Of a stretch of DNA of 64,000 nucleotides, positions 5,002 through 33,613 are shown one piece after another. The number at the start of each line of letters is the position of its first letter. Position 1 is the stretch's first letter. The notes beneath the pieces are model-generated. The model searched no databases. It was not told the DNA's origin and saw nothing but the letters and a program-made list of their open reading frames with translations. The DNA is from Nitrospirota bacterium. Its GTDB lineage: Bacteria; Nitrospirota; Thermodesulfovibrionia; SZUA-242. The position numbers and the translations under genes were made by a program. Location of the stretch: positions 1-64,000 of the forward strand of contig JACRHH010000022.1 of NCBI GenBank assembly GCA_016212095.1, in the 5' to 3' direction.

Positions 5002-5880
5002 CTACTTCGTCCCCTGCTGCTTTTCAGGCGCGCCACCCTTCTGCTTGACCGTATCGTTCATCATTCCCTTTCTCTCAGGCCCGGCTGGCGGAAGTTGTTT
5101 AACCACAATATCGGTATTAACAATCATCCCATGCTCGCCAACCCTTACAGGCGCGGGTTTGTCGCCGCCGAACACGCCGATCACCCCGCCTTCAACCATC
5201 GGCCCTCCTCCATAGTCCGAACGCACACGCAGATAGAATTTCCCCGCGCCTCCGGTTCGTAAAAGATACGTTCCGTCGGCCAGCGTTCTTTCCGACACAT
5301 AAGCAGGCAGGCCAGACATGTCAGGACTCGAATACGCCAGAACAACCGCACCGGCCACAGGCTGTTTATCAACATAGAGCACTTTACCGGAAATGCCCGT
5401 TGCCAGTGAAGTCGGATCTCCGGGGGTGGCGGAAGGCGGACGATACTCGTATGCCTGCGAGAGCATCCCGGCATCAAGCGTCTTGCCGGCTTCCACAGTA
5501 TATTTCACGGCCTTCTGCTCCGGATCACGGCTGATAATGATCATGTCGCCATTACGCGGCGGGCCAAGCTCCGGCCCGTTTGTGCGCCGCACGATTGCTC
5601 CAAGATAATAGATTCCGGGAGGCGCAACAATGCTGATCGAACCGTCCGGTTTAAGCATCTCGACCAGTTCCGGCACGCGAAGATAGCGCATCGGATCGGG
5701 AGCCGGGCCGGTGGAGGCGTCAAATAAAAAGACGCCGCCCCTTACCGGCTCAGGCTTTTCGCCCAACTGCACACGCCCGGTAACCGTTCCATCGCCGGTC
5801 TCTGCCGAAACGGCAAGCACCACAAGCAAGACAACGACCATCGGAATGCACAATATTGCGATAACATTACGGATTTTCAT
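5002..5880 (-). CDS. Secreted protein with carboxypeptidase-regulatory-like domains
   Basis: A 292-residue exported protein, the last gene of the cytochrome operon. The start MKIRNV at 5880 is chosen because AGGTG lies 7 bases upstream. It overlaps the previous gene's stop by 14 bases, suggesting translational coupling; a longer start would reach further into that gene. A signal peptide (about residues 1-26, ending VSA) precedes two beta-sandwich modules of the transthyretin-like/carboxypeptidase-regulatory type: GTVTGRVQLGEKPEPVRGG and ISGKVLYVDKQPVAGAVV with the usual LADGTYLLR phrase. The C-terminal tail (about 30 residues) is charged, Lys/Gln-rich and probably disordered. There are no haem motifs. 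The role is probably structural at the cell surface; this is inference from domain type and context. Confidence 0.7.
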   Translation of the reverse strand: MKIRNVIAILCIPMVVVLLVVLAVSAETGDGTVTGRVQLGEKPEPVRGGVFLFDASTGPAPDPMRYLRVPELVEMLKPDGSISIVAPPGIYYLGAIVRRTNGPELGPPRNGDMIIISRDPEQKAVKYTVEAGKTLDAGMLSQAYEYRPPSATPGDPTSLATGISGKVLYVDKQPVAGAVVLAYSSPDMSGLPAYVSERTLADGTYLLRTGGAGKFYLRVRSDYGGGPMVEGGVIGVFGGDKPAPVRVGEHGMIVNTDIVVKQLPPAGPERKGMMNDTVKQKGGAPEKQQGTK

Positions 5881-6835
5881 GTGGTTGCACCTCATTTCGC
5901 GTGCTGTCAGCCACGCCTGTTTTTTTAATGCTGCCGTAACGAACTCCTGCGTTCGCAGCCGGGCGTTCAAGAAACGGACGGTATAACGCTGATCCTAGCG
6001 AAATATCGCGATTCCTGTCGAAAATTTTTATTCCCATCTCCATTGATCCGCCCGATCCCCACCAGTTGCCGGAAACATCCAGATCCCATGACTGCCGCTC
6101 CCCCAGGTTCAGATTGTACCAAAGATTATCGTGTATGTTGTTACCGCTTATGCTCAGCTTGCCGGTATTCCACGGGCGACCGCTTCGCTCCGGCTCAAAG
6201 AAATCGGCGATGTTCTGCCCGGACGGGGCCAGAAACATGCCGATCCTGTTTTGGGTAATGTTGTTGCGGCTGATGATTACCGGCCCTTCCATGCGAGTAA
6301 AGCGGATCCCTATGTCATTATGGTGGAATTCGCTGTTTTCGATTACAAGCCGCGCACGTCCGAAACGCATTCCCTCGTTGTTTCCGTGAAATATGCAGCA
6401 AGATACAGCCGCGGTTGAGAAGTGCGCCTGAAGTCCGGTGAACGCGCCGGAAAACTCGCAATAACGAATGACATTATTTTGCGGCGAGGTAAAGATCATT
6501 ACATATGACCAGTCACCTGGCGAGGAAGAGGCTTCGGCAGACATGAAACGGATCATGCGATCAGGCATGCCGATGGCGTTGATTCCGCCAAGCACACGAA
6601 GCTCGGAGTCGCCGATGCCATCGCCGTTTCTGTCCACCTTCTCGAAGCGCACTGTCGTTCCAGGCTCGATCGTGAGCGTGGCCGCACGGGCAACAACAAC
6701 CACGCCGCGCACAGTCACTTCACCATACCAGTGAGTGTCGGAGGCAAGCACCGTGTCCGCCTGAACCGTTGCGGATTCGCACCTTGCGGCAAACAACAAC
6801 AGAGCGGAAAACAGAAACGGCAGAAGCCGTATCAT
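5867..6835 (-). CDS. Secreted right-handed beta-helix protein
   Basis: A 322-residue protein with a signal peptide (MIRLLPFLFSALLLFAARCE) followed by a beta-helix of the NosD/pectate-lyase-like kind. A typical entry strand is seen (LTIEPGTTVRFEK, about residues 53-66), a DRNGDGIGDSE loop, then repeating turns rich in N, G and I: NNVIRYCEFSGAFTGL, VIENSEFHHNDIGIRF, IISRNNITQNRIGMFL, LSISGNNIHDNLWYNLNLG. It ends with DVSGNWWGS, a common closing phrase of such proteins. No catalytic residues are recognisable, so it may bind polysaccharide or act as a scaffold. It starts in an ATGA overlap with the upstream gene and overlaps the downstream gene, so it belongs to the operon. Confidence 0.78.
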   Translation of the reverse strand: MIRLLPFLFSALLLFAARCESATVQADTVLASDTHWYGEVTVRGVVVVARAATLTIEPGTTVRFEKVDRNGDGIGDSELRVLGGINAIGMPDRMIRFMSAEASSSPGDWSYVMIFTSPQNNVIRYCEFSGAFTGLQAHFSTAAVSCCIFHGNNEGMRFGRARLVIENSEFHHNDIGIRFTRMEGPVIISRNNITQNRIGMFLAPSGQNIADFFEPERSGRPWNTGKLSISGNNIHDNLWYNLNLGERQSWDLDVSGNWWGSGGSMEMGIKIFDRNRDISLGSALYRPFLERPAANAGVRYGSIKKTGVADSTRNEVQPHENP

Positions 6836-7986
6836 GGCGTCTTGACGGCAGGCATCACCGGGGCTGTCCGAATGTCGATGCCTGTCAATTCGCTGCCTTC
6901 AACAGCATCAACCGAATGGTTTGCATTGCCCTCGTACAGCCCGAACATCTCGCCGGCATCCGGAGCTTCGCCCGATTTTTGTCTTGCGACAAGATAGTAC
7001 ATTCCTGGCTGAGAAAGCCCGATCCTGTAGCGCCCGTCATCATCCGTTATTGCCATGTTCGGCGTCTTTGTCCGGATTATATGCATCTGGAACAATCTGT
7101 CACGCCCGGCATTGTAGGCTGTAACAAACGCGCCACTGACAGGTTGCCCCCTCATATCGGTCACGCGACCGCTAATGGACAACGAGTGCGATGCGGCATC
7201 GGACGGGCCACGCCTGAAATCGCGCATCCTGATGCCGCCTGTTGAAACAATACTGTTTCCTCTCACTCTCCGTTCAGGAGGCAGTTTGGACGGATCATCC
7301 AGAAACGCATAAAGATCATCCTTCGGATAGCATTCAATCGAAACAGAACAAGATTGTCCGGTCGTCACGGTTACCTGATTTCCGGTGTGCCGACAGTACA
7401 GGTCGCCCTTTTCTAGAGGCTTCATCTGCTCTTTCCCGTTCCTTCTGCGCGCCACAACCGCATATGATCCCGGCCCGATATCAAAACGAAAATTCCCACG
7501 ACTGTCGATTGTGGTTGTAAGGAGCCCCATTCCGCGAAAATACCCGTCATTGGCCGGATAGATGGAAACCCGGCCTCCGGATACCGGATTTCCCTTGAAC
7601 GTGACATGCCCAGACACGCCCTCCCTCCCGTCGGAGCAAACGGCATCGGTTGCCGGCAAGGCCATTAATGGGATCCAGGCAGGCGCGTCGGATATTGTCA
7701 CCGGATTTGCGCCGTGATATGCGACATGTTTCAGTCCGCCTGAATAACCGCTTGCGGTCAGATAATATGAACCTGCCGGAAGTTTCAGACGATATTCACC
7801 AGGCTTGTCGCCGCCGACCGCCCTGAATCCGCCTGTTTTCGATATAAAGGCCGAGTAATCGGAATACGCCTCGACAATGGCGTTCTCCACCGGCCCGCTG
7901 CTCGAAAAAACGATTCCTTCGACCGGCCCGCAGTGCGCAGCCGAAGGAATCAGCAGGGGGAGAAAGAATAATGCGACAAGTAACAC
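6832..7986 (-). CDS. Secreted carboxypeptidase-regulatory-like domain protein
   Basis: About 384 residues. A GTG at 7986, 13 bases after the giant gene's stop and preceded by AGGA, is the best start; no ATG fits without entering the upstream gene. A hydrophobic export signal (LLVALFFLPLLIPSAAHC) is followed by at least three Ig-like carboxypeptidase-regulatory modules: GPVEGIVFSSSGPVENAIVE, GVSGHVTFKGNPVSGGRVS and SISGRVTDMRGQPVSGAFVT. Each carries the phrase pattern GxYxLxLPAGSYYL or GRYRIGLSQPGMYYLVA. It resembles the 292-residue protein two genes later, so the two flank the beta-helix gene and may be paralogues. Cell-surface location is inferred. The exact start is uncertain. Confidence 0.68.
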   Translation of the reverse strand: MLLVALFFLPLLIPSAAHCGPVEGIVFSSSGPVENAIVEAYSDYSAFISKTGGFRAVGGDKPGEYRLKLPAGSYYLTASGYSGGLKHVAYHGANPVTISDAPAWIPLMALPATDAVCSDGREGVSGHVTFKGNPVSGGRVSIYPANDGYFRGMGLLTTTIDSRGNFRFDIGPGSYAVVARRRNGKEQMKPLEKGDLYCRHTGNQVTVTTGQSCSVSIECYPKDDLYAFLDDPSKLPPERRVRGNSIVSTGGIRMRDFRRGPSDAASHSLSISGRVTDMRGQPVSGAFVTAYNAGRDRLFQMHIIRTKTPNMAITDDDGRYRIGLSQPGMYYLVARQKSGEAPDAGEMFGLYEGNANHSVDAVEGSELTGIDIRTAPVMPAVKTP

Positions 7987-7999
7987 GCCATATAATATC

Positions 8000-10900
8000 C
8001 TAAGGCGCGCAAGTGCCGTCGCCTGCCGCGTATGCCGGGGCTGTAACCGCTGCCTCCGAGCTGTACTGAGAGGTATCGGAGCCGCGATACGACCGCACAC
8101 GATAGCGATGCTCCTTGCCCGGCTCAATGGACATGGTGTCGGTAAACGTGGTCACATTCGGCCCGACCGTGGCTATCTGCTTGAACCGTCCGTTCCATAG
8201 CTTTACCTCGATCATGAATCCATCCTCGTCGGAGGCGTTATCGATCCAGTTCAGGCGTATCATCCGCGAGTTGATCGGAGTTGCGGCAAGTCCGGACGGG
8301 CCGTCCGGACGCGTGAGGTTGCAAACTGTGCCGGTATACAGAAGAGGCCACGCGCATGACGCGCTCTTGTATGAACGAATCCGGTAACAGTAAGTTGTGG
8401 ACGCCTGCAGCCCGGAATCGGAATAATGGCCGGTTGACGAACTCAGCCTGAAATCGTCAACACGAGCGGTGAGTGTGACGGCTGCCGTTCGCTGGGCATG
8501 TTGAGATATTTCCACGGCGGCCGGCTCGCCTGCCGTCGATGCCTGAGTGTGGGTGAGCATCAGTGTCCATGCGCTTCCGTTCCATCTATACGCGGACAAC
8601 ATGCCGGCAACTCTTGTGATGCGGAGCTTGCCGCTCATGTCGGTGGTTGCCGCCAACTGGCTTTCAGTAGCGCTGTTAATGCGTGCGTACGCTGAATAAT
8701 TTCCTGCGGTTCCGGTGTAATTACGATCCACGTAAATGTAATCGGCGGTTGCAGGGCCGCTACCGTCCGGATCCGCGAACAATACATACAGTCGAGCATA
8801 AACACTGCTCTGGGCAACCGTAATTTCGCCGTTTGGAAGCGTGAAGCTTACCTGCATGTCGAAATCGGCGTTGCCGATGGCCGAAGGATTCGCCAGATAA
8901 ATCTTCGACGTGTTCCAATTGGAACTTAATCCGGTTACGGTCGTATACAACTGAACCATGCCGCCCGTTACTGTGATGCGCGAGGTTCCGCTTGAATCGG
9001 TTACATCTATGGGCACGGTTGTGTCGGAGCTCGATGCAAGAAAGCCTGCCTGGCTCCAGGATGCGGAATCGATCCCGGTGTCGAAGCCGTCGATGTTCAC
9101 CATTGATGAAACATTGGCTATTTCGGCGAAACTTGAACATCCGTCACCGGCGCATCGCTCCACCTTGAATCCGGTTTCGTCGATGTTCTCGTCCTTCCAT
9201 TGCAGGTCTATTCTCTTCGTGGGAAGCGCATCGTCTATCTTCTCCACGACTGCAAGATCATGCGGTGTTGCAGCGGTCATGGTCGTGGCTGAAGACTGCG
9301 CTCCATAACCAGACTGCCAGGTCGCGCTCTTGACGGCGCGAACCCGATAGCTGTACGGTGTCGCCTGACAGACCGATGTGTCGCTATAGGTTGTTGCATT
9401 GGCGGCGGCGGCATAAAGCAGGGTAAAATCGGAGCATCCGCTTCCGGCGCAACGCTCGATCTCGAATCCGGTTTCGGAACCGCTGTTGTCTACCCATGAA
9501 AGATCCATCCTCGTTGTGTTCATGACGGACGTTGTCAGCGATGCAGGCGCTGTAACGGTAGTCTCGCCGGTTGCCGTGTTGCTGTAATCGGTATTCCATG
9601 CGTTTGTCGCTGTCTTGTAGGCGCGCACCCTGTAACAATACGTGGTCGAAAAGTCCAGCCCTGTATTGGAATATGTTGACACGTTTGCCGCAACCGTGGC
9701 GATTTCGGCAAATCCGTTGCACGTTGCGTCGCCGCGCTCGATGCTGAATCCTGTTTCATCGACGGGATTGTCAGTCCACGACAGGTTAAGCTGAACCTCC
9801 GAAACCCAAGCGACTGCAAGTCCTGAAGGAGCAACCGGGGTAAGCGTTGCTACATCGGCCAACGTGTTGCTGTAGCCGGAATTCCACGGGAATGTGCCAT
9901 TGACCGCGCGGACTCGGTAGCTATACACACTGGAGTGAACAGCCGATGTATCGCAGTATGTATTGACGCCGGCGGCTGTAGACGCCAGCGTGGCGAAATC
10001 CGCGCATCCGGTTCCTGCGCACCGCTCGATCTCGAAGCCTGTCTCGGATGAAGTGGTGTCTGTCCACGACATGCAAGCCTGTGTTGTGTTAACGCTTGTC
10101 GCGGCCAGACCGGTTGGCGACGGAACTGTTGTGCCTGTTTCCGCGCTTCCGGCGAAGTTGCTCCATGTTCCACATGTAACCGGCTTGTACGGATAAACGC
10201 GCCAGCAGTATGAATTGAACGGCGACAGCGTGGTGTCGCGGAACTTGAACGTGCCGCTCGATCCGTTGAACTTGAAGTTGTCAAACCGCGTGGTATAGGT
10301 CTTGGCCTCGTCCCTGCGCGTGAAATTGCTGACCTGGACAGCCTGAACCGCGGCATCGGCAGGTATGCTAGCCGAAGCTGTAACCAGGAGCGTCCATGCG
10401 CCGTTTGTCCAGGCGTATGTCGAGATGACATTGCTGCTCCGGACAATCCGGAGCTTTCCCGATACATCGGTCGTGGAAATCGTGGAGGCATTACAGTACC
10501 ACGTATCGTTCACCATCACGCAGCCGTTGTATGTGCCGCCCGTGCTGGTAGCCTTCCGGCTGACAACAATACGGTTTGAATTCGCATATCCGGCAGGTGT
10601 CGGAAAATCCACCCTCAAACGCGCCATGTCGATTGTGTTGGTAACCGTCTGGTTGCCGTTCGGCAGCGAATAATCAACCTGCATGTCGAAGTCCGCTGTT
10701 CCGAAGATGGACGGATTGGCAAGAGTAAGCTCGGCACGGTTGTTTTCCGCCGCGCCGCCGCCCTTCGACTGGTTATAAAGCTCGACGGCTCCCAGTGAAG
10801 CGTTGTGTGTGATCGTTATCTTGCCCGATGTATCTTCAGCCGAAATCGGCGCTGTTGAATATGTTGTGCTTCCAAGCACAGCCGCCTGATTCCAGACTGC

Positions 10901-13900
10901 CGTATCGATCCCGCCTGTAAAGGTGTCTTCGTTGACCACCGTGCCGACCTGTGCGAACGAAAGCGTATTGGATGCGCACGATTCCGTCTTGCGCTCGATG
11001 CGGTAACCGGTTTCCCCGGTCATTGAATCGATCCATGACAGATCGGCTGTTGTTTCGGTTGCCGCAACTGCCGTAACACCGGTTGGAGCCGCAGGGCTTA
11101 CAGTCGTGACATCCGCTGGCACGCTGACGTTGTAATCAGTCTGCCAGGACAAAGCGCCTGACTGTTTCGCTCCGACTGCAACGGACGGCTCGGTGGTCAC
11201 GTCATTCTTGACCGCAATCCAGTCAACACGCATTCCGTGCGAATACTGTGTGAATGCGATACGCATTGTGCTGTCGTTATACGTCGTTGAATCATAAATC
11301 AGTCGCCAATCAGGATAAATATCGCCCCTGATGTAGAATTTAGCACCCGTGGCCTTCAGCACAACCTTTTCTTCGTAATCGGTATTGGCCAGATATGAGG
11401 TGTAATTGCTGCTGACATAACTGCCGCCCTTCTGATACACAAGGAAGTTGAAGTTTCCCCAGTACAGACCGTGGACAAGCTGTGTGTAGTTTGGATCGGT
11501 TGTCTGATTCAGCTCCCAGCCGATCATCAGATGGTCATCCACGCCTGCCGAATCCGATGTCCGCATCTTGGCGTAAACCGTTTTATTGGCAGTACGCGTG
11601 AATGTCTGCTGCGATATGAGAGCCTTCGACCATGCCGTATTCGCATACTGGAAATACATTCCGTTGTTCTGATAGATCGAGTTGTTCGGGTCGATCTCGA
11701 TCCATTTCGACGTATTGATGGCGGTTCCCCTGAAGTCGTCGAAGAACTCGAATGTTGACGAACCGTTGCTTGAAGCGGTGGCAAGCGGATTTCCGTAATA
11801 CAACGAAATATTGTTGTTGGCGCCGGTCTTTAGCCAGATTGTGGCGGTTGTTCCGTCTGCCTTCTTCTCGATCCAGTACGGAAGCTCAAGCAATGCGGTT
11901 TCGTCAAAGAATCTGATATCGTCGAAATCAGGCTGCATGTCCGGATCGTAAGCCAGCTCAAACTTAGTCTCATGTCCGGCCACGAAATTGGTTACAGTAA
12001 TCGCCGATTTTCTGGACCATGCTCCGCCACCCCCATTCGACATGCCCGAAACCGACGGGAAAGACTCGCTGATACCCATTATCCGGTAGTTATACGGGGT
12101 GTCAGGACAGGCATTGGCGTCCGAATACGAAGTCGCGTTGCCCGTTACACTCGCAAGCGCCGCGTAATCGACGCATCCAGAACCTGAGCAGCGCTCGATG
12201 GCGAAACCGGTATTGGAAGCGGTGTTATCCGTCCAGCTCAGACCGATCGTTGAGGCGTTCACGCCCGAAGCGGAAAGTCCGGTTGGAGGCGGCGGCGCAA
12301 GAGTTGTTGCCGATACGGATTCGCTGTATAGCGGCCCCCATGTGCAGGTGGCTGTCTTGTAAGCGTAAACCCTGTAGGTGTAAGCAGTGCTGAGTGGAAG
12401 AGTATTGTTGAGATAGCTTGAAACGTTAGGGCCAAGCGCGGCTATTTCAGCAAAGTCGGAACAGCCGACGCCAAGGCAACGCTCCACCTTGAAACCTGTT
12501 TCATCCGATGTATTGTCGGCCCAGGACAGGTTGATCTCGGATTCCGAAATTGCCGTCGCGGTCAGGCCCGACGGAGACACTGACGCAGGCGTCGCGGCGG
12601 TTGCGGTATTCGACGGCACGCCTGTCCATGTATGCGCGAAAGCATAGCAGCCGGGAGACTCCTCCGCTCCAAACGCAACCGATGGCGCGGATACAGTGTA
12701 TTTCATCACGGCAGCCCACTGTATCTTCATCTTGTGGGTGCTATGGGTGAAAGCCAAACGCATGGCGCTGTCATTGTAAGTGGAGGTTTCCTTTACAAGA
12801 CTCCAGTTCGTCAATGAGCCGCCCTTGACATAATAACGGGCGCCGGTGTCCTTAAGCTCTATCTTCACCTCATAGTCAACATTCGCACGGCTATATGTGT
12901 AGTACGTCGAATAGCCGGTATTACCGCCTTTCTCATAGGTATTGAAATAGCTGTCCACCCAGTAAAGGCCATGTATCAGCTTTGTGTAACTCGGATCGGT
13001 TGTCTGGTTGGTTTCCCATCCCATCATGATGTAATCGGAAGCCGCGGAGTCCATGCTTGTCAGCTTGACGTAAAACTGCCTGTCCGACGATCTCGCGAAT
13101 GTCTGTTTGGAGATGAGTGCCTTTGTCCAGTTGGAATCGACATAATCGAGAAGCAACCCGTTATTCTGGCTTATCGATCCGTTCGGATCGATCTCCGTCC
13201 ACTTGCCGGTATCTATCGAAGCACCGGTGAAATTGTCGAAAAACTCGAAAACGCTCGCGCCGGACGACGCGGATGCGGCAGCGGCGTTGCCGTAATACAT
13301 CGATATTGTGCTGTTTGCGCCGGTCTTCACCCATACCGATGCGGTCAAACCGTCGCTTTTCGATTCGATCCAGTACGGCAGTTCAAGATGAGCCGTCTCG
13401 TCGTAGAACCTGACATCATCGAAGTCTGCCTGCATGTCCGCATCATAGGCAATGGTCAATTTCATCTGGTAGTTCGGTTGAAATCCGGTCACGGAAAGCG
13501 GAACCCTGCGCGTCCAGCAGCCGCCAAGTCCGTTGCTCAAACCCTCGTCCAACGCCTTAACCCTGTAGCTGTATGAGGTGTCGGCGCAGGCTGATGTGTC
13601 GGAATAGGCTGTCGTTCCTGACGCAACGGCCCCTGAAGCAGCGTAATCAGAACATCCGACGCCTGCGCAGCGTTCAACCGCAAAACTCGTTTCGTTGCCG
13701 GTGCTATCAGTCCATGCCAGATCAACCCGTGTGGTGTTTACCGGCGTTGCCGTCAGGCCCGACGGCGGATTCATGGTGGTTACCGCCTCGGCTGTGCCTG
13801 TGTAACCCGTGCTCCATGAACAGGTTGCAGTCTTGTACGCGCGAACCCTGTAGCGATATGTCGTATCCGGAGTCAACTGCGTATCCGTATATGTATTGAC

Positions 13901-16900
13901 CGCGCTTGCCGCCGTCATGGTTGTGCTTGTCGAAAAATCGCAACCCACGCCAGAACAGCGGTCTATTTCAAAGCCTGTTTCATCGGTTGTGGTCAATGTC
14001 CATGTCAGGCGTATGGATTCCTCCGACATTCTGTCGGCAGACAGGCCTGTTGGCGTTGCCGGATTCTGCGTCGTGGCCGATGCCGTGAGCGTATAGTTCG
14101 AATCCCATGCTGGAGCGGTTGCCTTGACCGCCTTCACGCGATAACTGTAAGAGGTATTTGCGCAGACGGAAGTGTCCGAATAAGTTGTGACGTTTGCTCC
14201 AACCGTCCCTGTCTGGGCGAAATCGGAACATCCTGCCCCGGAGCATCGCTCAACCACGAATCCGGTTTCCACTCCGGTGTTGTCAACCCATGAGAGGTTG
14301 ATGGTGGTGGTATTTGCAGCCGTCGCGGTCAGGCCGCTTGGCGGAACAAGCGTTGTGGTTGTTTCAGCCATTACACTCTGCGCGGTTTCCCACGAGCATG
14401 ATGCATTCTTGAATGCCGTCACGCGATACCTGTATGTTGTATTCGCCTCAACATTTGTATCCTGCCACGTCGTCTTCACAAAAGCGCCGGTATTGTAACG
14501 GCTTGAAACTTCAGTGGATGTCAGCGCGCGATTGTAGACAACAGCCTCGTCGATCAAACCCTTGAACATGCCGACCACGCCGCCAGATTCAACTACTCCG
14601 CCCAACGTCAGCGGCGAAGTGGTTGATGCAAGATTGCCGGCGGCATTCGACCACTGCCCAAGCAGCGAGCCGTTCAGGTATAGCTTGAGTTCGTTGGTGT
14701 CGTTCTTGTCATATGTGACTACCAGATGATACCAGGTGTTGTTCTGTATGCCGGCATTTGTATAGGTATGCAGAAGCTGTCCGCCGGACACGGAATAAGT
14801 GAAGATCTTTACGTCCGAACCGGTTGTCCCTATCTCTAAAATGTCGTTCGCCGATACGGATGACACTCCGGCCAGAACATTGTTCACACCGTGCGATGTG
14901 GCGGATGTCTGATCCGCTGTCCGGTTGAACCAGAGTTCGAGGCTTGCCGCTGCCGGATTATTCAGCGCGCTCAGCGCGCCGAAATCCAGATAGTCATTGG
15001 TGCCGTCGAACGACCCGGCCAACCCGGATTTACCTCCCGCGGCAGTATTGGCTCCGTTGACCGCGCGTCCGTTTCTTCCGTTGCCAGAACTGTCAAGCAC
15101 TTCTCCGGCAGTCCCGTTCCAAGCAGCCTCATCCAGCTTGTACCATGCCGCGGCAAGCTGCAGATCCGGATTGATGTAATCGACAGGCGTGTAAACGGCG
15201 CTGAAATCGGTGCAGCCAACTCCGGAACAGCGATACACGTTGATACCGGACTCATCGCTGTTGGCGTCTGTCCACGACAGATTGATCTGGCCTTCCGACG
15301 CACGCGTTGCGGTGAGAACGGACTGCACAGCCGCGGCAGTGGAGGCAACATTAGAGACAGTCGCGTATGCGCTTGTCCACTCGCCGGTTTTATATGCGAC
15401 AATCCTGTAGCTGTAAACGGTTCCCTGACATACCGAATTGTCGTTGAAGGTTACAGCACCGGCAGTCACTGTGGTAAGTGTCGAGAAGATCGAGCAACCG
15501 GTTCCCTCGCATCGTTCGATCCTGAAGCCGTCTTCACCTGTTACGGTATCTGTCCAGTCCAAACGAATCAGTGTTGTGCTTGCCGGCGTCGCTGAAATGG
15601 GCGTGGGTGCAGGCGGCGTAACGGTGGTTGCTTCGCTTTCAAGCCAACGCGATTCATCGCCGTTGTTTTCGAACGACTGGATACGGTAACAGTATGTAGC
15701 ACTGATATTGAGACCGGTGTCGGTATAGGATGTCGTGTTGGCCGAAGCTGTATGGATCAGCTGCCATGCATTCGCGGACGCACAGTTACCGTTCTTGCGC
15801 TCGATCCTGTACCCATCCTCGGCGGTGGCGTTATCGAACCATGAAAGAGCAACCTGCGTGTAATACGCCGACGCCGTGAAAGGCGAAGGAACCTGAATGT
15901 GATCCCATGCGCATTTGAACATGAGGAAATCGGTGTTTCCGCTCGCGTTGGTGGTGTAACCGCCAATGAACGCCTCGCCAAGAGAATTTATGGCCACGCC
16001 GGATGCCTCGTCATGGCCGCCTGATATTCCGCTGAAAAGGGTGGCTCCAATTATGCTGCCGTCGTAGTGATATTTAACCGAAAGAATGTCCGAATCTGTT
16101 CCGTTATTGGTATTCCCCACGACACATACATTTCCGGAAATATCCATCCCCATAGTCACGGCAAGGTCATCATTCAACGGCCTGTCGAGCGTCTTCTCCC
16201 AAACAATGTTTCCGTCGGAATCGTACCTTATTACATGAAAATCGTTATTCCCGGCTCCGGTCTGCGTTGTTCCGGATATGACGATTGAATGATCGACAGG
16301 GTCTATCCTTAGACCTTTCACATAATCATCACCGCTTGAGATACCGTCATATGTTTTTGTCCAGGTTCGCGCGCCGGTCGAACTGTTGTACTTGACCAGA
16401 GCGAAATCCTTGCCGCCGGAAGCGGCGGACATGTAACCGCCTGCGTAAATATTGCCGGACGAATCGATGCCGATCACGCTTATCCTGTCATCGCCGTTTC
16501 CAGTGCCGTTGTAAACATCGTGCCAGAGCATGGAGCCGTTTGAACCGGCATATTTGGCGATAAACATGTCGTAGTTCGCGCCGTTGCCCACATAGCCGCC
16601 GACATAAATATCTCCGGCAGCGTCATAGGCTATTGAGGTCGGGTAGTCATTGCCGCCAACGCCGTTATCGTACGGAGCGGCAGCCCAGATGCGTGTTCCA
16701 TTCGACTGATATTTCAGCAGATAAATATCGTCATTCCATGCCACGTTGCGCCCGTAGCCGGTAATCGCATAACTTGTGGTTCCAAGGGTAGCAACCGCAA
16801 CGGACGATGATCTGTCGTCATCGCCGGCGGGGCCGTTATACTGATCGCTCCAGCTTGCCGGCGGGCCTGACGCAGGATAGGCGATAGTGTAGATGTCGTT

Positions 16901-18853
16901 GGTGTTCTGACCCGCTCCGGGGCTGTACATGTAAGAATATCCGGAAACAATCACGTTGTTTGCAGTGTCCACACCCACATCGGTCGCGATATCCAGATCG
17001 TTCTGGTCGCTATCGAAACGCGCATCCCAGATGAGCGCGCCGCTAACCCTGTCGAGCTTGACGGTATAGTAGTCGAACTGCCCTGCTATCGATGTGCTGA
17101 AACCGGCCGCCACGGGGTTGTTGTCGGGGCCAACCGCTATTGCATTCACATAATCATCGCCGTTGTCGGCGCCGTTATATTGATGCTGCCATGTTGGAGG
17201 CAGATACTGGATGACGGTTGTCTTTGCAGACGCCTCATCGCTGTAATGCGAGTTTCCGAGCGACGCGGTGAACGCCTTGATGCGATAATAATATTTCGTG
17301 TCCGGAGCAAGGGGAGTGTCGTTGAAGCCGGTAACATTCGGGCCGAGCGGTGGGGTAAGTTCCGCGTAGGTTCCATACAGGCCGATCTTGCGCTCGATTA
17401 TGAATCCGTCCTCGTTGGCCGAATTATCGATCCAGGATAGCGCAATCTCTGTGGTTGAAACAGTCGTGGCGGTCAGTCCGGTCGGACGGTCGAGCAGACC
17501 TGGATCGTACTTGACGACATAATAGTCTAAGTCGCCTGCCGACACGCCTTCCGACCACCCGGCCAGAATCGGCTCTCCTGTCGGTGAAAGCCCCAGGCCA
17601 ACCGGTCTGTCGTCTCCGTGAGCGCTCCCGTCGAAGCTTGCGCTCCATAAAAGGTTGCCGCTGCTCTTTGCGTATTTGATCGTCCGGAAGTTGTAATCTC
17701 CGGAAACCACATCAAACGTATAACCGGCAACGAAAACGTCACCCGATTCGTCAACCTCGATCGCAACCGGCGAATCGCCGTTTCCGTCGTTCGAGTTGTA
17801 TATGGCGCTCCAGACAGTCGAGCCTGTAGAGCCGTTGTATCGCGCCGTGTATATATCGGTTGCGCCGGTAACCGAGAAAGTCCAGCCTGTGATATAGGCA
17901 TTACCGGAAGCATCGAGATGAAGGGCAACCGGCTCTTCGTCAAATCCGTTATTGAAGGTGTTCTGCCATGTGACCGCACCGGAGGCACCGTTGTATTTCG
18001 CGCAATAAATATCCTTGTCTGTTCCGTTGAAAGAAACCGCGCCGACGATCACATTGCCGGAAGCATCAAAACCGGCAACCGTTCCGCGTTCATCTCCGGA
18101 TGCGATGTATTTGCGCTCCCAGAGAAAGGAACCGTCGGAAGCGTATTTAATTGTAAGAGCATCGAAGTTCGTTGCGTTGCGGGACTCGCCGGTCACCACC
18201 ACGCCGAACGATGACGCTGTTACCGAAGTTATGCGGTCATGACTGTTCGATGCGCCATTATACGTGACTACCCATATCGGATTGCCGTCGAGACCGGGGC
18301 CGTCTGTTCCATACTTGAGAAGCAACATGTCATCGCTGCCGCTTGCCCCTTGGGCATATCCGCCGACATACGCGTTTCCAAGCGCGTCAACAGCCACTGA
18401 TGCCGGATAGTCGTTGCCGTTGACGGAAGAATTGAATGTGTGCTGCCAGAGCACAGTCCCGTTTGTTCCGTTGTATTTGACGGTATGGACATCGAAATTG
18501 AGACCATTCCAGACATAACCGGTCACTATCACGTTGTCGGACGCATCGACAGCAACGAATACTGGAACGTCTTCTCCGCCGGATTTGTCGAATGCCGCCG
18601 TCCACGCCGTGCCGGTTCCATTGGCCAGGAACTTCGCGGTATAGAAATCGTGATTGCCGGAATTGTTGGTGAATCCGGTCACGATAACATTCCCGGCGGA
18701 ATCGACCGCTGAAGACTTGGCGTCCTGAATATCGGCTTTAACGTCGCCGCGCTGCCAGACAATGTCGCCGCCTACCGCCATCGCTGTCGCGGCCCACAAC
18801 AGCGCGAACATCACGACCAAAACCGGATAACGTTTCACAAAGACCCGTTTCAT
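8000..18853 (-). CDS. Giant secreted modular protein: SBBP propellers, 15 FnIII, LamG and DUF2341-like modules
   Basis: A 3617-residue exported protein. Start MKRVFVKRY at 18853 is preferred; a start about 20 bases upstream is possible. After a signal peptide (to about 18785) come eight beta-propeller repeats of the SBBP kind (AVDASDNVIVTGY type, about 17480-18780), one FnIII domain (about 17210-17480), and a second eight-blade propeller (about 15890-17200). Fourteen more FnIII domains follow. Most FnIII domains carry a cysteine-bearing signature, ERCxGxGCxDF. Five modules are embedded among or inside them: a LamG/concanavalin-like fold (about 14490-15160), two DUF2341-like domains (about 12655-13516 and 11160-12025; LPYWIESK and MYYGNAAA phrases), and two related lectin-like modules (about 10235-10932 and 8435-9095). 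There is no C-terminal anchor or sorting signal. It sits between the cytochrome and small secreted genes of the same operon. The likely role is a surface filament or adhesin/scaffold; binding partners are unknown. Confidence 0.85.
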   Translation of the reverse strand: MKRVFVKRYPVLVVMFALLWAATAMAVGGDIVWQRGDVKADIQDAKSSAVDSAGNVIVTGFTNNSGNHDFYTAKFLANGTGTAWTAAFDKSGGEDVPVFVAVDASDNVIVTGYVWNGLNFDVHTVKYNGTNGTVLWQHTFNSSVNGNDYPASVAVDALGNAYVGGYAQGASGSDDMLLLKYGTDGPGLDGNPIWVVTYNGASNSHDRITSVTASSFGVVVTGESRNATNFDALTIKYASDGSFLWERKYIASGDERGTVAGFDASGNVIVGAVSFNGTDKDIYCAKYNGASGAVTWQNTFNNGFDEEPVALHLDASGNAYITGWTFSVTGATDIYTARYNGSTGSTVWSAIYNSNDGNGDSPVAIEVDESGDVFVAGYTFDVVSGDYNFRTIKYAKSSGNLLWSASFDGSAHGDDRPVGLGLSPTGEPILAGWSEGVSAGDLDYYVVKYDPGLLDRPTGLTATTVSTTEIALSWIDNSANEDGFIIERKIGLYGTYAELTPPLGPNVTGFNDTPLAPDTKYYYRIKAFTASLGNSHYSDEASAKTTVIQYLPPTWQHQYNGADNGDDYVNAIAVGPDNNPVAAGFSTSIAGQFDYYTVKLDRVSGALIWDARFDSDQNDLDIATDVGVDTANNVIVSGYSYMYSPGAGQNTNDIYTIAYPASGPPASWSDQYNGPAGDDDRSSSVAVATLGTTSYAITGYGRNVAWNDDIYLLKYQSNGTRIWAAAPYDNGVGGNDYPTSIAYDAAGDIYVGGYVGNGANYDMFIAKYAGSNGSMLWHDVYNGTGNGDDRISVIGIDSSGNIYAGGYMSAASGGKDFALVKYNSSTGARTWTKTYDGISSGDDYVKGLRIDPVDHSIVISGTTQTGAGNNDFHVIRYDSDGNIVWEKTLDRPLNDDLAVTMGMDISGNVCVVGNTNNGTDSDILSVKYHYDGSIIGATLFSGISGGHDEASGVAINSLGEAFIGGYTTNASGNTDFLMFKCAWDHIQVPSPFTASAYYTQVALSWFDNATAEDGYRIERKNGNCASANAWQLIHTASANTTSYTDTGLNISATYCYRIQSFENNGDESRWLESEATTVTPPAPTPISATPASTTLIRLDWTDTVTGEDGFRIERCEGTGCSIFSTLTTVTAGAVTFNDNSVCQGTVYSYRIVAYKTGEWTSAYATVSNVASTAAAVQSVLTATRASEGQINLSWTDANSDESGINVYRCSGVGCTDFSAVYTPVDYINPDLQLAAAWYKLDEAAWNGTAGEVLDSSGNGRNGRAVNGANTAAGGKSGLAGSFDGTNDYLDFGALSALNNPAAASLELWFNRTADQTSATSHGVNNVLAGVSSVSANDILEIGTTGSDVKIFTYSVSGGQLLHTYTNAGIQNNTWYHLVVTYDKNDTNELKLYLNGSLLGQWSNAAGNLASTTSPLTLGGVVESGGVVGMFKGLIDEAVVYNRALTSTEVSSRYNTGAFVKTTWQDTNVEANTTYRYRVTAFKNASCSWETAQSVMAETTTTLVPPSGLTATAANTTTINLSWVDNTGVETGFVVERCSGAGCSDFAQTGTVGANVTTYSDTSVCANTSYSYRVKAVKATAPAWDSNYTLTASATTQNPATPTGLSADRMSEESIRLTWTLTTTDETGFEIDRCSGVGCDFSTSTTMTAASAVNTYTDTQLTPDTTYRYRVRAYKTATCSWSTGYTGTAEAVTTMNPPSGLTATPVNTTRVDLAWTDSTGNETSFAVERCAGVGCSDYAASGAVASGTTAYSDTSACADTSYSYRVKALDEGLSNGLGGCWTRRVPLSVTGFQPNYQMKLTIAYDADMQADFDDVRFYDETAHLELPYWIESKSDGLTASVWVKTGANSTISMYYGNAAAASASSGASVFEFFDNFTGASIDTGKWTEIDPNGSISQNNGLLLDYVDSNWTKALISKQTFARSSDRQFYVKLTSMDSAASDYIMMGWETNQTTDPSYTKLIHGLYWVDSYFNTYEKGGNTGYSTYYTYSRANVDYEVKIELKDTGARYYVKGGSLTNWSLVKETSTYNDSAMRLAFTHSTHKMKIQWAAVMKYTVSAPSVAFGAEESPGCYAFAHTWTGVPSNTATAATPASVSPSGLTATAISESEINLSWADNTSDETGFKVERCLGVGCSDFAEIAALGPNVSSYLNNTLPLSTAYTYRVYAYKTATCTWGPLYSESVSATTLAPPPPTGLSASGVNASTIGLSWTDNTASNTGFAIERCSGSGCVDYAALASVTGNATSYSDANACPDTPYNYRIMGISESFPSVSGMSNGGGGAWSRKSAITVTNFVAGHETKFELAYDPDMQPDFDDIRFFDETALLELPYWIEKKADGTTATIWLKTGANNNISLYYGNPLATASSNGSSTFEFFDDFRGTAINTSKWIEIDPNNSIYQNNGMYFQYANTAWSKALISQQTFTRTANKTVYAKMRTSDSAGVDDHLMIGWELNQTTDPNYTQLVHGLYWGNFNFLVYQKGGSYVSSNYTSYLANTDYEEKVVLKATGAKFYIRGDIYPDWRLIYDSTTYNDSTMRIAFTQYSHGMRVDWIAVKNDVTTEPSVAVGAKQSGALSWQTDYNVSVPADVTTVSPAAPTGVTAVAATETTADLSWIDSMTGETGYRIERKTESCASNTLSFAQVGTVVNEDTFTGGIDTAVWNQAAVLGSTTYSTAPISAEDTSGKITITHNASLGAVELYNQSKGGGAAENNRAELTLANPSIFGTADFDMQVDYSLPNGNQTVTNTIDMARLRVDFPTPAGYANSNRIVVSRKATSTGGTYNGCVMVNDTWYCNASTISTTDVSGKLRIVRSSNVISTYAWTNGAWTLLVTASASIPADAAVQAVQVSNFTRRDEAKTYTTRFDNFKFNGSSGTFKFRDTTLSPFNSYCWRVYPYKPVTCGTWSNFAGSAETGTTVPSPTGLAATSVNTTQACMSWTDTTSSETGFEIERCAGTGCADFATLASTAAGVNTYCDTSAVHSSVYSYRVRAVNGTFPWNSGYSNTLADVATLTPVAPSGLAVAWVSEVQLNLSWTDNPVDETGFSIERGDATCNGFAEIATVAANVSTYSNTGLDFSTTYCYRVRAYKTATNAWNTDYSNTATGETTVTAPASLTTSVMNTTRMDLSWVDNSGSETGFEIERCAGSGCSDFTLLYAAAANATTYSDTSVCQATPYSYRVRAVKSATWQSGYGAQSSATTMTAATPHDLAVVEKIDDALPTKRIDLQWKDENIDETGFKVERCAGDGCSSFAEIANVSSMVNIDGFDTGIDSASWSQAGFLASSSDTTVPIDVTDSSGTSRITVTGGMVQLYTTVTGLSSNWNTSKIYLANPSAIGNADFDMQVSFTLPNGEITVAQSSVYARLYVLFADPDGSGPATADYIYVDRNYTGTAGNYSAYARINSATESQLAATTDMSGKLRITRVAGMLSAYRWNGSAWTLMLTHTQASTAGEPAAVEISQHAQRTAAVTLTARVDDFRLSSSTGHYSDSGLQASTTYCYRIRSYKSASCAWPLLYTGTVCNLTRPDGPSGLAATPINSRMIRLNWIDNASDEDGFMIEVKLWNGRFKQIATVGPNVTTFTDTMSIEPGKEHRYRVRSYRGSDTSQYSSEAAVTAPAYAAGDGTCAP

Positions 18854-18867
18854 CGCCTCCGTCCCCC

Positions 18868-21800
18868 TTACCATGGCGTCACGCTGTTCCACTTCTGATT
18901 ACCGGGCCAAATCGAAGACCCGCTTGCGCTCGACGACTCATGACAAGCCCAAGTCGAATTCTTGCCGCGCGGATACTGGTAGCTGCCGTAGCTGCCCGGA
19001 TAACCACCGGAAACAACCTGCCCCTTGTGGCTGTAATCAAGGCAGTTTGTCTGCATCAAACGCGGCAATGCTGAATTATGCGGCTGGTGGCACTTCGCGC
19101 ACGGCCATGAATGCTCGGCATTCGTACCCCAACCCTTCACGGATTCGTGAATCCTGTCCTTCGACTTCCATGCGCTGTTCTTGTTTATGCCGTCGGTCAG
19201 ATTCGCCTTCGGATGACATTTCAGGCAAAGCCCGGCAAACTGCTCCTCGCTCTCATATATGCGGGAACCGTTGAACGTGTTCCTGTCGGTGTGCCAGTTC
19301 AGCGCCGGAGTGCTGTACCTGTAGTATGTTGACGCGCCCGACGGGAAATCATCCTTGTACGGCGTCGTCAGCCATGTTCCCTTGAGAAGAGGCATGGCAT
19401 ATGCCGCATCTGAGCCCAGCGTGGGAGTTACTCCGTGAGGATCGTGGCATGGCGTGCAGAGTCCGTTGATGGTTCCCATGGCCGGACTTGTCAATGCAGA
19501 GGAAGCCTTCAGGTGTCCGCCAAGAATCGGCCTGCTGTTGTTTCGATAGGAGAAGCGCGATGTCGATGCCTTTGTCCCTTGGCCGAAGGCCGCCGTATCC
19601 TTGTAGCCTCGAATCGGCTGGCTTGCACCGAAAGTGGAATTGTAGCCCCATGGCCTCGTCCCCGATGTCTGGGTATCGTGGCAATCAAAGCAGAGACCGG
19701 CGCCTGCCGCGTATGGATTGACCGAGCCGGTATCAGCATTGGCTGACGGCTTGTAAGTCATCTGATAGCCGCCCTTTCCTGCCTGCGTCTCTTTCAGGTT
19801 GGCGCCGTTGTATGTGCCGTTAAATGTCACATAACTGGAAGTCACGCCCGTGGCCTTCGATCCATGCGAGCTGTGGCAGTCGTAGCACTGAACATTCTGT
19901 GTGCCGTTTCTGGTGTTCGTGATCGTTTCATCAACACCGTTCGTAGCATCCCATCCGCCCTGATTGGCGACAGCGTTGCCGTGCGCCGAAAATGCCTTGG
20001 TGATGTTCTTCTTCGCAGCTGCATCTATGGTTGTGTACTTGCCCCATGTCGCGGTAGCGGTTTGGGAATATCTTGCCGCAACGCTCGTCCTGTCCCAGGC
20101 ATACTGACGCGGCGTCTTGCAGTCGCCATGATCGGGATCGACTATCTTGAACGGCTGGAAGTCGTTGTTCTGGTCGCTGTGACATCCAAGACAGACCTGC
20201 GTCACCTTTCCGACCTCGGTTCGTTCATCAGCCGTTCCAATCTTGTTTGCGGTAAATGTTACGGCAGTGGTTCCGGTCTGATAACTCGTCGGGCGCTGAC
20301 CCGGCCCCCAGATGACCAGATCGACAGGGGCTTCCGTAGTAGTGGTATGTGTGATGTAGTTGTAGCCCGCATGATAATCCACATTGATAAGCCCGTTCTC
20401 GGTCGCTTCCCAATGACATGCGTAGCAATGCTTGTTTGTGGTATCCACGCCCTGGACATGGTGCGAGTTCGAACGGAACTGGCCCATAATGTCCATGCGC
20501 TTCTTTATCACGCCGTTGTGGCACTTCGTGCAGTCACGCGGCAGGCCGAAACCGCTGTGACGCGGGATCGGCTTGTTCAAATGGCATTCCGTGCATGACT
20601 TGCCTGAGGCATGGCTGTCGCTGAACCTGTGCTCGTGGCAGGTGGTGCATATGCGTCCGGTGTTATGGCCATCGCCGTAATCGAAACGGTAATGCTGCCC
20701 CATCTCCGTATGGCAGACGTTGCAGATTCCGTCGTAGGGCGCCGATGTCCTTGCGTAATCGAGGCCGCTCTGCTTGCGCGTGAACGTTACATCTGCACGT
20801 TGATCGGGTATGCCGAATGTGCCATCGGTCTGGGTCGCAACCTTCTTCTGTATCATGTATATGTTGCTGTCGCCGTGCGGATCGTGACAGTCCCAGCAGA
20901 ACTTGCCGCCCTTCCACACGCCCTGCTGCAGATATTGACCGTAATGCTTGTAGCCGAAGTGAACGGATGTGGCCTTGGACACTGACGCGCTGATAAATCC
21001 GGTGCCGGGATCGTATCCAAGCACATACTGACTTCCCGTGTGGCACAAATTGCATCGGTTGTTCCGGTCGTCATCGTGGCATTTAAGGCAGACGCCCATC
21101 ATTACATACTGATTCTTCACATCATTTTTCTGTTCGACTGACCAGCTTCCCGCTCCAGTCTTGTGTCTCTGGGCATCCGTGGCATGACATACGGAAACAC
21201 ACGATGTCAGGCCGTCCGCATAGCCGGCATGTTCCTGGGAAAACGGCGGGTTATTAATTGCGCCAAGCTGCGGAGCAAGCGATCCTGCGGCATTGTGGCA
21301 GCCAAGACATTCTGTGTCGATTCCCTGCATATGGCAATAAACACATTCCTTCTCGAAGCGGGCCTCGAACTGGCTGTGCTGTTTCAGCCTGAACGGATTC
21401 GTTGTGTCGTTATGAAGGATGTTGTTGTCGTGACAGTACCAGCACGGGTTGCCGGGGAAGTTGGCCGGAGGATTGCCGGAAGAATAATTCCCTGACGCCG
21501 AAGTTCTGCCGTGGCCGCTCTGCACCCACTCGTTCATGTTGATCTTGGCGCGAGTGCCGTTGAACTTGGCGAAATCGTCAACGTCCAACTCAGTTGTTCC
21601 GTGGCATGTAAGGCATATCACCTGTCCGCCAACAGAGTCTCCCCATTGAGGATCCGCTCCGGTGTGGCAAACGGTGTTGGAGCATTTCTTTGTGGCGTAG
21701 CTATATGAACCGCCGTTTTTGAAAACTACATCCTTGGCTTTGTTCACATGATAATCCGGATTGATATGACTGACCTCATCCATCGTTCCCGCCGGAAGAC

Positions 21801-24087
21801 CGTTAACATGACATTCGGTGCATGCGCCGTTCCGTATGGTGGCGTCATGACAGTTCTCGCAAGTGAAATTAGTAAGAAGATGCCTCGGATGCGAGTTTGC
21901 GCGTTCGGTTCCGGGGCCGGTGTTGGTGTACATCGGCATCGCGCTCTTCCACTCCTGCCCGGCGGCCCACCCGGTGCGCCCATCGGTATGACAGTTCTCC
22001 TGCGAACAGGTTCCGGCAGGATGGCCGTGGCAAGTATTACAGGACGTTCTTCCCTGAGTCCACGCAAACGGCCTGACCTCCGGATTAACCGTGGTTCCAT
22101 CGCTGTGGCAATAGATATTGTTGCAGACCTTAGAGCTTGAATTGAAACTTGGCGGCATGTTGCCGACAATAGACCATCTTGAGTTGATCGCCACGTCGGC
22201 GAATTCATTTACATGTTTCGAATAATCCTTTATATTCCCGGATAAATCGACCGTATTATCGTGGCAGTAGTAACACGGATATTTTCTGACCCACGACAGG
22301 CCGGCAAGCCTTTCATGGCCATTGGAGCTCATCACCAGAGTGTCGATGTTTGTTCGCCCCTTGTGGCAGGAATCGCAATTCAGGGCTACAGTATCCGACC
22401 AGGCCACGGCCTGATTCGGGCTCCCGCCTCTTGCGTCGCTGTGACAATATGTTCCGCTACAGCCGCGGCTTCCTGTGCTGTACGAGCCGCCGCGCGAGAA
22501 AACCACGTCTTTGGCCGTATCTGAATGGGGTGCTCCAGCCTTTATTGCAGAGCTTCCGCTTGCGGTTGCGCTGTGACACTTCTCGCACGCAAACCCGTAT
22601 GTCCCGGCGTTTGTATGCGCCGCATGACGCCCGCTAAGCCCTGTTGTCGCGCCGCCGGTGTCGTGGCATGAAGAGCATGTACGCGCCGGGTCGCCCCAGT
22701 TTTGAGTCCTGAAGATGTTTGCCTTGTCGAATGGAGCGGCGTTGCTGTGGCAATAAATATTCGTGCAGGTTCCGTATCCGCTTCCGGGCGAATGATCATC
22801 GAAACCGTTGCCGTTGTACGACGCTGAACCGCCGTATATTGCAGGGAAACTTACGTCTATCACGTTATCGGCATGTTTCGCGGTTCCCGAACCTGCTCCG
22901 TTATGACATGTGGAGCAGGAATATCCGGGCTGGGAAAGATGCTTGCCATGCGAGCCGCTGTCCATGCGCGAACCATCGCCAAGCGTACCGTTGGACTTGT
23001 GGCACGAACCGCACTGAACAGACGCGGGGCTATCCCAAACCGGCGTTCCATATGCCGTAGGAGCGCCGTTACCGGATAAACCCTGCACGTTGCCATGACA
23101 ATAAATGTTTGAGCATGTGAGGTTGTTCATCCCCTTGGCGCCGGTTGCAGTCACGGTTGTTCCATTATGGGCGCGATAACCGGCTACAACCGCCTGCCCA
23201 TTGTATGCCGTGCCGTTTCCGCCGCTGGAGAAAATGTTGAAACCTATGTCGATGACATGATTGCCGCTGTCGGGCATGTTTCCAGGGTAGCCGTAATGAC
23301 ATATTTCGCAGGAATAGCCTTGCCCTTCGGCTGACGCGTGCTTGCCGTGAGCACCGGAGGTCGTCGATCCGGTTGAACCCGGAATCTCGGCCAGCCCTTT
23401 GGTTCCGCCTGTGCTCTGGCTGTTTACGACATCCTCCACCGGCGGGTTTCCGTGGCATCCATCGCAACCAATCGGTTTGAACCCCCTGCCATGACTATGG
23501 CAGCTAATGCAATCCGCCTTGTTGTAATGGATGAATTCAGTCTGTCCCGTGGCATTGAAGCGATGAAAACGGGTCAGGCTGTGACAAACCTCGCACGGCC
23601 TGGTTGACGAAGCATGAGTGTTGGAGTCGTCGCCGAATTCCGAATCGCCGTTAGTGGTCTTCTGGAATGAAGTTGAGCAACCCTGCTGCTGGGCTGTCTC
23701 GCACGGGAACATGTTGGCCGGATAATTTGGTGACGAGATTACAGGCTGAAATAATTTAATGTTTGGCGACGGACGGACATGGCATGTTTCACATGAAAAT
23801 CCGCCATATTGCCCCGTATCGGTTCCCCAGTTGCCGCTCCATTTGGCTGTTGGCGTCCAGACACCGTTTCCCTTTGCCGGATCTTCGCAATCGGCCTGCG
23901 ATGTGCCGCTATACGTGGCGTTTGAACATGTGCCGAACCTGTTACTGTTATGGATCAGATAAGAATCGTTCCATGCGATTGCCTTGAAGGGCTGGATCAG
24001 TGCGACCAAGAAAACGACGGCAATAAATGCCTTGACTGTCAGCCCGGATCTCCGACTCCTGGCATTACTCATGCTCGTGTTTGCCAT
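18868..24087 (-). CDS. Giant multihaem c-type cytochrome (32 CXXCH plus 7 variant haem sites)
   Basis: A 1739-residue exported cytochrome with a signal peptide (VKAFIAVVFLVALIQPFKAIA). I count 32 CXXCH motifs, six CX4CH motifs (CSNIYCH, CTNIYCH, CSGTYCH, CNNIYCH, CSQENCH, CSNTVCH) and one CX3CH (CVSVCH), up to 39 covalent haems. In the N-terminal half, five CX4CH sites are each followed by a CXXCH, the arrangement known as the Geobacter CxxxxCH...CXXCH domain. The C-terminus has an isolated Cys and, 32 residues later, WACHES, a possible further unusual site. The protein lacks membrane helices and a lipobox, so it is probably periplasmic, secreted or held at the surface. It is the first gene of the operon, its stop lying 14 bases before the giant protein's start. 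Extracellular electron transfer is inferred from the family. Confidence 0.92.
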   Translation of the reverse strand: MANTSMSNARSRRSGLTVKAFIAVVFLVALIQPFKAIAWNDSYLIHNSNRFGTCSNATYSGTSQADCEDPAKGNGVWTPTAKWSGNWGTDTGQYGGFSCETCHVRPSPNIKLFQPVISSPNYPANMFPCETAQQQGCSTSFQKTTNGDSEFGDDSNTHASSTRPCEVCHSLTRFHRFNATGQTEFIHYNKADCISCHSHGRGFKPIGCDGCHGNPPVEDVVNSQSTGGTKGLAEIPGSTGSTTSGAHGKHASAEGQGYSCEICHYGYPGNMPDSGNHVIDIGFNIFSSGGNGTAYNGQAVVAGYRAHNGTTVTATGAKGMNNLTCSNIYCHGNVQGLSGNGAPTAYGTPVWDSPASVQCGSCHKSNGTLGDGSRMDSGSHGKHLSQPGYSCSTCHNGAGSGTAKHADNVIDVSFPAIYGGSASYNGNGFDDHSPGSGYGTCTNIYCHSNAAPFDKANIFRTQNWGDPARTCSSCHDTGGATTGLSGRHAAHTNAGTYGFACEKCHSATASGSSAIKAGAPHSDTAKDVVFSRGGSYSTGSRGCSGTYCHSDARGGSPNQAVAWSDTVALNCDSCHKGRTNIDTLVMSSNGHERLAGLSWVRKYPCYYCHDNTVDLSGNIKDYSKHVNEFADVAINSRWSIVGNMPPSFNSSSKVCNNIYCHSDGTTVNPEVRPFAWTQGRTSCNTCHGHPAGTCSQENCHTDGRTGWAAGQEWKSAMPMYTNTGPGTERANSHPRHLLTNFTCENCHDATIRNGACTECHVNGLPAGTMDEVSHINPDYHVNKAKDVVFKNGGSYSYATKKCSNTVCHTGADPQWGDSVGGQVICLTCHGTTELDVDDFAKFNGTRAKINMNEWVQSGHGRTSASGNYSSGNPPANFPGNPCWYCHDNNILHNDTTNPFRLKQHSQFEARFEKECVYCHMQGIDTECLGCHNAAGSLAPQLGAINNPPFSQEHAGYADGLTSCVSVCHATDAQRHKTGAGSWSVEQKNDVKNQYVMMGVCLKCHDDDRNNRCNLCHTGSQYVLGYDPGTGFISASVSKATSVHFGYKHYGQYLQQGVWKGGKFCWDCHDPHGDSNIYMIQKKVATQTDGTFGIPDQRADVTFTRKQSGLDYARTSAPYDGICNVCHTEMGQHYRFDYGDGHNTGRICTTCHEHRFSDSHASGKSCTECHLNKPIPRHSGFGLPRDCTKCHNGVIKKRMDIMGQFRSNSHHVQGVDTTNKHCYACHWEATENGLINVDYHAGYNYITHTTTTEAPVDLVIWGPGQRPTSYQTGTTAVTFTANKIGTADERTEVGKVTQVCLGCHSDQNNDFQPFKIVDPDHGDCKTPRQYAWDRTSVAARYSQTATATWGKYTTIDAAAKKNITKAFSAHGNAVANQGGWDATNGVDETITNTRNGTQNVQCYDCHSSHGSKATGVTSSYVTFNGTYNGANLKETQAGKGGYQMTYKPSANADTGSVNPYAAGAGLCFDCHDTQTSGTRPWGYNSTFGASQPIRGYKDTAAFGQGTKASTSRFSYRNNSRPILGGHLKASSALTSPAMGTINGLCTPCHDPHGVTPTLGSDAAYAMPLLKGTWLTTPYKDDFPSGASTYYRYSTPALNWHTDRNTFNGSRIYESEEQFAGLCLKCHPKANLTDGINKNSAWKSKDRIHESVKGWGTNAEHSWPCAKCHQPHNSALPRLMQTNCLDYSHKGQVVSGGYPGSYGSYQYPRGKNSTWACHESSSASGSSIWPGNQKWNSVTPW

Positions 24088-33477: not shown

Positions 33478-33579
33478 ATCGTTATCTCCGTGTAAGTCGA
33501 ATTATCCACAACCCCTCCGGCCTTTCGGCCACCTCCCCTTGCCAAGTGGAGGAACAGGAGTGCGGGGCAGTTACTCTTC

Positions 33580-33601: not shown

Positions 33602-33613
33602 CCGGGGGTGAGG

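Follow-up and report, generated by a model that had tools for sequence, protein, structure and literature searches.

The locus described here belongs to a Nitrospirota genome of 2.97 Mb in 39 contigs, and the window, by which we mean the whole stretch of 64,000 nucleotides that was analysed, corresponds to contig C16. The closest named relatives, as judged by the cytochrome of the locus, are Nitrospirota MAGs. A dsrA gene was identified in the same genome with a score of 536 bits, and the host is, on this sequence evidence, a sulfur-metabolising, dsrA-bearing member of the Nitrospirota. The listed dsrA match on contig C7 (L193, 21246-22406) contains one TAG, which may correspond to the terminal stop.

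An earlier sequence-only reading of the window had described five consecutive genes on the minus strand, separated by 14 bases or less or overlapping, and the open reading frames and translations between 24087 and 5002 bear this out: gaps of 14 and then 13 bases are followed by overlaps of 4 and then 14 bases, and the short intergenic spacing comes with a ribosome site. From this spacing alone we infer that the five genes are co-transcribed. The description of their products also agreed with our searches, in that the first gene was thought to carry up to 39 haem sites, the second to encode a giant modular protein and the last three to encode two carboxypeptidase-regulatory-like proteins flanking a beta-helix protein, although the fifth product has no Pfam match of its own. 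The signal peptides of the operon products were read by eye from the sequence. The Pfam search identified no barrel domain in the five products, and no secretion system is encoded in the operon. The features of the locus are as follows:

18868-24087, minus strand: mega-cytochrome (gene 1), 1739 aa, with 39 CX2-4CH sites and a signal peptide that looks Sec-type by eye, without a visible lipobox
18871-18909, minus strand: C-terminal tag of the cytochrome, WPGNQKWNSVTPW, kept at the extreme C-terminus and preceded by a hypervariable linker
8000-18853, minus strand: giant partner (gene 2), 3617 aa from an ATG start, with a propeller-FnIII-propeller region (about residues 40-1000), FnIII repeats, LamG, two DUF2341 domains and a conserved C-terminal end
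6832-7986, minus strand: CarboxypepD_reg protein (gene 3), assigned by its CarboxypepD_reg domain match, start uncertain
5867-6835, minus strand: right-handed beta-helix protein (gene 4), 322 aa, assigned by its Beta_helix domain match
5002-5880, minus strand: second CarboxypepD_reg-like exported protein (gene 5), about 292 aa from an ATG, assigned by kinship to the gene 3 product
24227-24242, minus strand: sigma-54-like -24/-12 site, CGGCTCGTAAATTGCA, a pattern match (weak evidence)
24413-24400, 24356-24344 and 24319-24305, minus strand: three TGAC...GTCA palindromes, possible regulator sites

The sigma-54-like pattern occurs 10 times in the window against 12.4 expected, which is not above chance, and the set of palindromes is not common to the relatives; we therefore treat the upstream sites as weak. 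A GEMM/c-di-GMP riboswitch upstream of the operon was considered and rejected, as neither the window nor 13 related loci contained one at the Rfam gathering threshold. A plasmid search gave no match. Elsewhere in the window there is an RND efflux set (AcrB-type, HlyD-type and OEP; 29158-35371) and a Big_1 Ig-like protein (36320-37678), both apparently unrelated to the operon, and its neighbouring genes in the window encode a P-type ATPase-like protein, a HAD hydrolase and a Na/Ca exchanger.

The cytochrome contains 32 CxxCH, 6 CX4CH and 1 CX3CH motifs, and the resulting 39 is a count of haem motifs in the sequence rather than of bound haems. Shuffled versions of the sequence contain on average 0.19 CxxCH motifs compared to the 32 observed, and the motifs are mostly invariant across 18 orthologues. 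A conserved lone CH (1715-1716) and a conserved Cys1682 could together form a 40th, non-canonical haem site. The protein scores well above the cut-offs of TIGR01904 (120.3 bits, cut-off 27) and PF09698 (GSu_C4xC__C2xCH; 79 bits, cut-off 21.7) and also matches the Cytochrome_C7 domain, but in the Pfam search it lacked both the MtrC/OmcA domain PF22113 and an S-layer domain. A profile of 18 sequences retrieved no PDB relatives at E<=1. The AlphaFold2 model of its C-terminal module is unreliable (mean pLDDT 48) and gave no Foldseek matches. In the aligned cytochromes, the pattern W-N-x-x-T/S-x-W, summarized as WNNVTPW, is located at the end or within a few residues of the end, after a variable linker, and a similar C-terminal end is retained in distant relatives. 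A pattern search of the host genome that allowed one mismatch recovered this tag only from the operon cytochrome and from a paralog on contig C37. The tag may act as a signal for docking or sorting. L085, L086 and L089 contain short, 8-haem relatives of the C-terminal module; two sulfatase genes directly adjoin the relative in L086, and the neighbours in L085 and L089 are similar in size.

The giant protein matches fn3, Laminin_G_3, DUF2341 (twice) and the SBBP/delta-60 propeller repeats. Its score against TIGR02608 (NCBIfam) is 74.7 bits, slightly under the cut-off of 76.5, and SBBP exceeds the cut-off in an orthologue. An AlphaFold model of residues 36-1004 or thereabouts, built from 18 sequences, has a mean pLDDT of 87.1 and displays regular, continuous strand repeats flanking an FnIII-like segment on either side; the spacing of the D-x-KY motif suggests about 8 blades per propeller. 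Foldseek searches with this model retrieved propeller proteins, CylK and tetrathionate hydrolase among them, as well as propeller-FnIII receptor ectodomains, which supports the fold class of the N-terminal region and not a function. With its propeller repeats, the giant is thus predicted to be an SBBP/delta-60 beta-propeller protein.

Genes 3-5 are the variable part of the operon. In seven related loci (L063, L064, L103, L105, L107, L109 and L113), genes 3 and 4 are a single fused gene, and homologs of gene 5 come after the fused gene in the relatives. The gene 5 product is weakly akin to the gene 3 product, as indicated by BLAST searches with homologs, and similar genes are also neighbours of other, shorter cytochromes. 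As for the start of gene 3, the GTG at 7986 is in frame, but a good ribosome-site-like AGGA at 7991-8000 lies ahead of an out-of-frame ATG, which could reflect a frameshift, an error or an unusual start.

A scan of contigs identified relatives of the locus in the Nitrospirota, the Geobacteraceae (including Geobacter sp. OR-1 and Geotalea toluenoxydans), one Desulfobulbaceae MAG and one MAG labelled "Deltaproteobacteria." The cytochrome is located upstream of the giant in all of the distinct giant loci in the Nitrospirota and Geobacteraceae (35/35), and the giant is located directly downstream in every full-length-class cytochrome locus with downstream DNA. Three loci that appeared to be unpaired (L114, L122, L126) were artefacts of the ORF filter, since the giant was present by tblastn. 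Among 230 genomes from the same class, only 7 have the propeller region of the giant at the cut-off used, and it directly follows the cytochrome in 9 of 9 loci. A shorter class of proteins that shares the C-terminal module of the cytochrome lacks the giant and frequently has a gene-5-like neighbour. Judging from this gene order, the cytochrome and the giant are an obligate pair in the loci examined, which cover two phyla. The search for the same five genes in the same order was successful in several Nitrospirota, where genes 3 and 4 are fused, while many Geobacteraceae have the two-gene pair only, often with genes 3-5 absent beside it. The earlier proposal, that the other products could scaffold or anchor the cytochrome in one extracellular structure, is partly supported: the cytochrome and the giant belong together, being adjacent in every relative checked in two phyla, and the five-gene order recurs in several Nitrospirota.

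The cytochrome and giant trees broadly agree, as expected for genes that are inherited as a unit, and the pairwise distances correlate at 0.89, although correlated inheritance of adjacent genes arises even without physical contact. The sequences of the Nitrospirota MAG GWC2_56_14 fall among the Geobacteraceae in both trees. This placement and the correlation fit a transfer of the pair as a unit, to which MAG contamination and plain adjacency could also contribute.

The comparison of gene neighbourhoods indicates that genes 3-5 belong to a larger ResB/YedE island. In several Nitrospirota, the island consists of the fused gene 3+4, gene 5, a beta-helix protein of about 850 aa, a CarboxypepD_reg protein, an OsmF-like binding protein and a ResB-like membrane protein, and continues with a PhnD-like binding protein, a TPR protein, YedE and an ArsP-like permease. 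In the host genome, the second half is detached and located on contig C21 (L031, 6942-16896), with ResB first; it contains genes for the ResB-like protein, an 869-aa beta-helix protein, the OsmF-like, CarboxypepD_reg and PhnD-like proteins, the TPR protein and YedE. None of the labelled genes was identified as ResC. The ResB-like gene is present in 27 of the 230 genomes and the C-terminal module of the cytochrome in 24, with both in 23 (Fisher 1.6e-26, genomes counted without correction for relatedness).

The sequence-only reading had also argued that the usual porin-cytochrome partners are absent and that the apparatus would therefore differ from known conduits. This argument is not supported: the operon does lack such partners, but the genome as a whole probably does not, as it contains a candidate cluster on contig C37 (20-49 kb) with a barrel-like protein of 729 aa, a PPIase, an NHL protein, tetrahaem and MtrC/MtrF-like cytochromes and further mega-cytochromes. 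The barrel-like protein has no Pfam match and its barrel character was judged by eye; PF22113 is present in a 7-haem protein on the same contig. The mega-cytochromes of this cluster (L094/L095, C37:20001-48600) contain 29, 40, 20 and 10 CxxCH motifs, and the one with 40 is, at 2076 aa, bigger than the operon cytochrome. A second cytochrome-giant pair, of 1622 aa with 31 CxxCH and 2755 aa, is located at C37:113126-126237 (L098), without genes 3-5.

The nanowire proteins OmcS, OmcE and OmcZ are secreted, contain multiple haems and have no porin of their own. The operon cytochrome differs from these in that it has no sequence or profile match to any PDB entry, contains several-fold more haems and is always accompanied by the giant. 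By score it belongs to the TIGR01904/PF09698 cytochromes, a domain family that is silent on the C-terminal module, the tag and the giant, and it lacks the S-layer domain of the S-layer fused ANME cytochromes. The operon resembles the porin-cytochrome conduits (Omb/Oma/Omc, OetABI, Mtr) in that multihaem cytochromes lie beside exported proteins, but encodes neither a barrel nor an MtrC/OmcA-type protein, the candidate cluster being elsewhere in the genome; a porin-cytochrome conduit is likely the upstream electron source. In syntrophic sulfate reducers, OetF is a cytochrome with fibronectin domains (PMC10553843). Both systems combine a haem protein with FnIII, which is inside the cytochrome in OetF but on a separate, propeller-containing partner in the operon. 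For Geobacter, co-transcription of ResB genes with genes for ResC/HemX-like proteins and multihaem cytochromes has been predicted (PMC2700814), and a ResB-related gene is thus grouped with multihaem cytochromes in both cases, although the island differs by its YedE, TPR, PhnD/OsmF-like, beta-helix and CarboxypepD_reg genes. Giant multihaem cytochromes are frequent in surveys (PMC11475568). We found no description of the obligate pair, the tag or the island in the PMC literature, which is weak evidence given that the search covered open papers only.

The recurrence of the pair in Geobacter and its tie to the wider island suggest that this is probably a dedicated apparatus for handling electrons outside the cell. 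On balance, we lean toward the interpretation that the operon encodes an extracellular electron-transfer assembly, in which a secreted cytochrome comes with its own scaffold. We infer the location, the redox role and the formation of a complex, and the role in extracellular electron transfer would follow from the established knowledge of multihaem cytochromes. The cytochrome would be exported, loaded with haem and, in the form of an elongated chain of haems, released or displayed beyond the outer membrane. The giant would bind it via the propellers and/or the conserved C-terminal WNNVTPW tail, and could fix it to the cell surface, the matrix or a mineral through the FnIII, LamG and DUF2341 domains, with the CarboxypepD_reg and beta-helix proteins perhaps aiding folding or attachment. 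The conduit that brings the electrons may be encoded in another part of the genome, with the barrel-cytochrome cluster on C37 as a candidate; the electrons could serve metal reduction, pass to partner cells or be taken up by the host, a sulfur metaboliser with dsrA. Speaking against this interpretation are the lack of profile similarity to any solved nanowire cytochrome, the absence of a secretion system from the operon and the fact that many Geobacteraceae do not have genes 3-5 next to the pair. More tentatively, and with some doubt on our part, this could represent a new class of apparatus in the Nitrospirota and Geobacteraceae, in which a docking tag (WNNVTPW) on a mega-cytochrome is read by an obligate giant propeller scaffold with a ResB/YedE island for biogenesis.

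We also considered a surface or adhesion complex of the two partners, whose cytochrome would act chiefly as a store of charge or a scavenger of electrons, while the giant would serve above all for attachment or contact between cells, with no long-range conduction. The FnIII, LamG and propeller content of the giant, the receptor ectodomains among the structural neighbours of its N-terminal region and the fibronectin-type adhesins next to extracellular electron transfer genes in syntrophic sulfate reducers (PMC10553843) are in line with such a complex. However, that the giant is so strictly paired with a 39-haem protein speaks for electron transfer, though conduction is not thereby demonstrated, and we regard the adhesion complex as unlikely.

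Improbable in our view is that the island mainly serves as a selenium/sulfur system, in which YedE, the PhnD-like lipoprotein and the OsmF-like protein import a chalcogen compound, the mega-cytochrome is an extracellular reductase of selenium oxyanions, polysulfide or elemental S/Se, and the giant binds the particle. The YedE of the host scores 403 bits against TIGR04112 (putative selenium transporter; cut-off 200) and YedE has been tied to selenium utilisation (PMC5322559); moreover, the island is kept together with the cytochrome, and dsrA is present. Yet many Geobacteraceae have the cytochrome and the giant without an adjoining YedE, which itself resembles transporters of sulfur compounds too. 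That the operon is a mere assembly of unrelated exported proteins is very improbable: genes 3-5 differ in presence and order among the relatives and gene-5-like proteins accompany other cytochromes, but the five-gene order is kept in several Nitrospirota and the idea is already contradicted for genes 1-2, which stay together in every locus examined across two phyla.

The obligate pair of a cytochrome and its putative scaffold, together with the conserved C-terminal tag, provides a testable handle on how the many giant cytochromes of uncultured metal and sulfur cyclers are assembled and retained outside the cell. As Geobacter sp. OR-1, which is a named strain, carries the pair in three copies, it is approachable in an isolate and not just in metagenomes.
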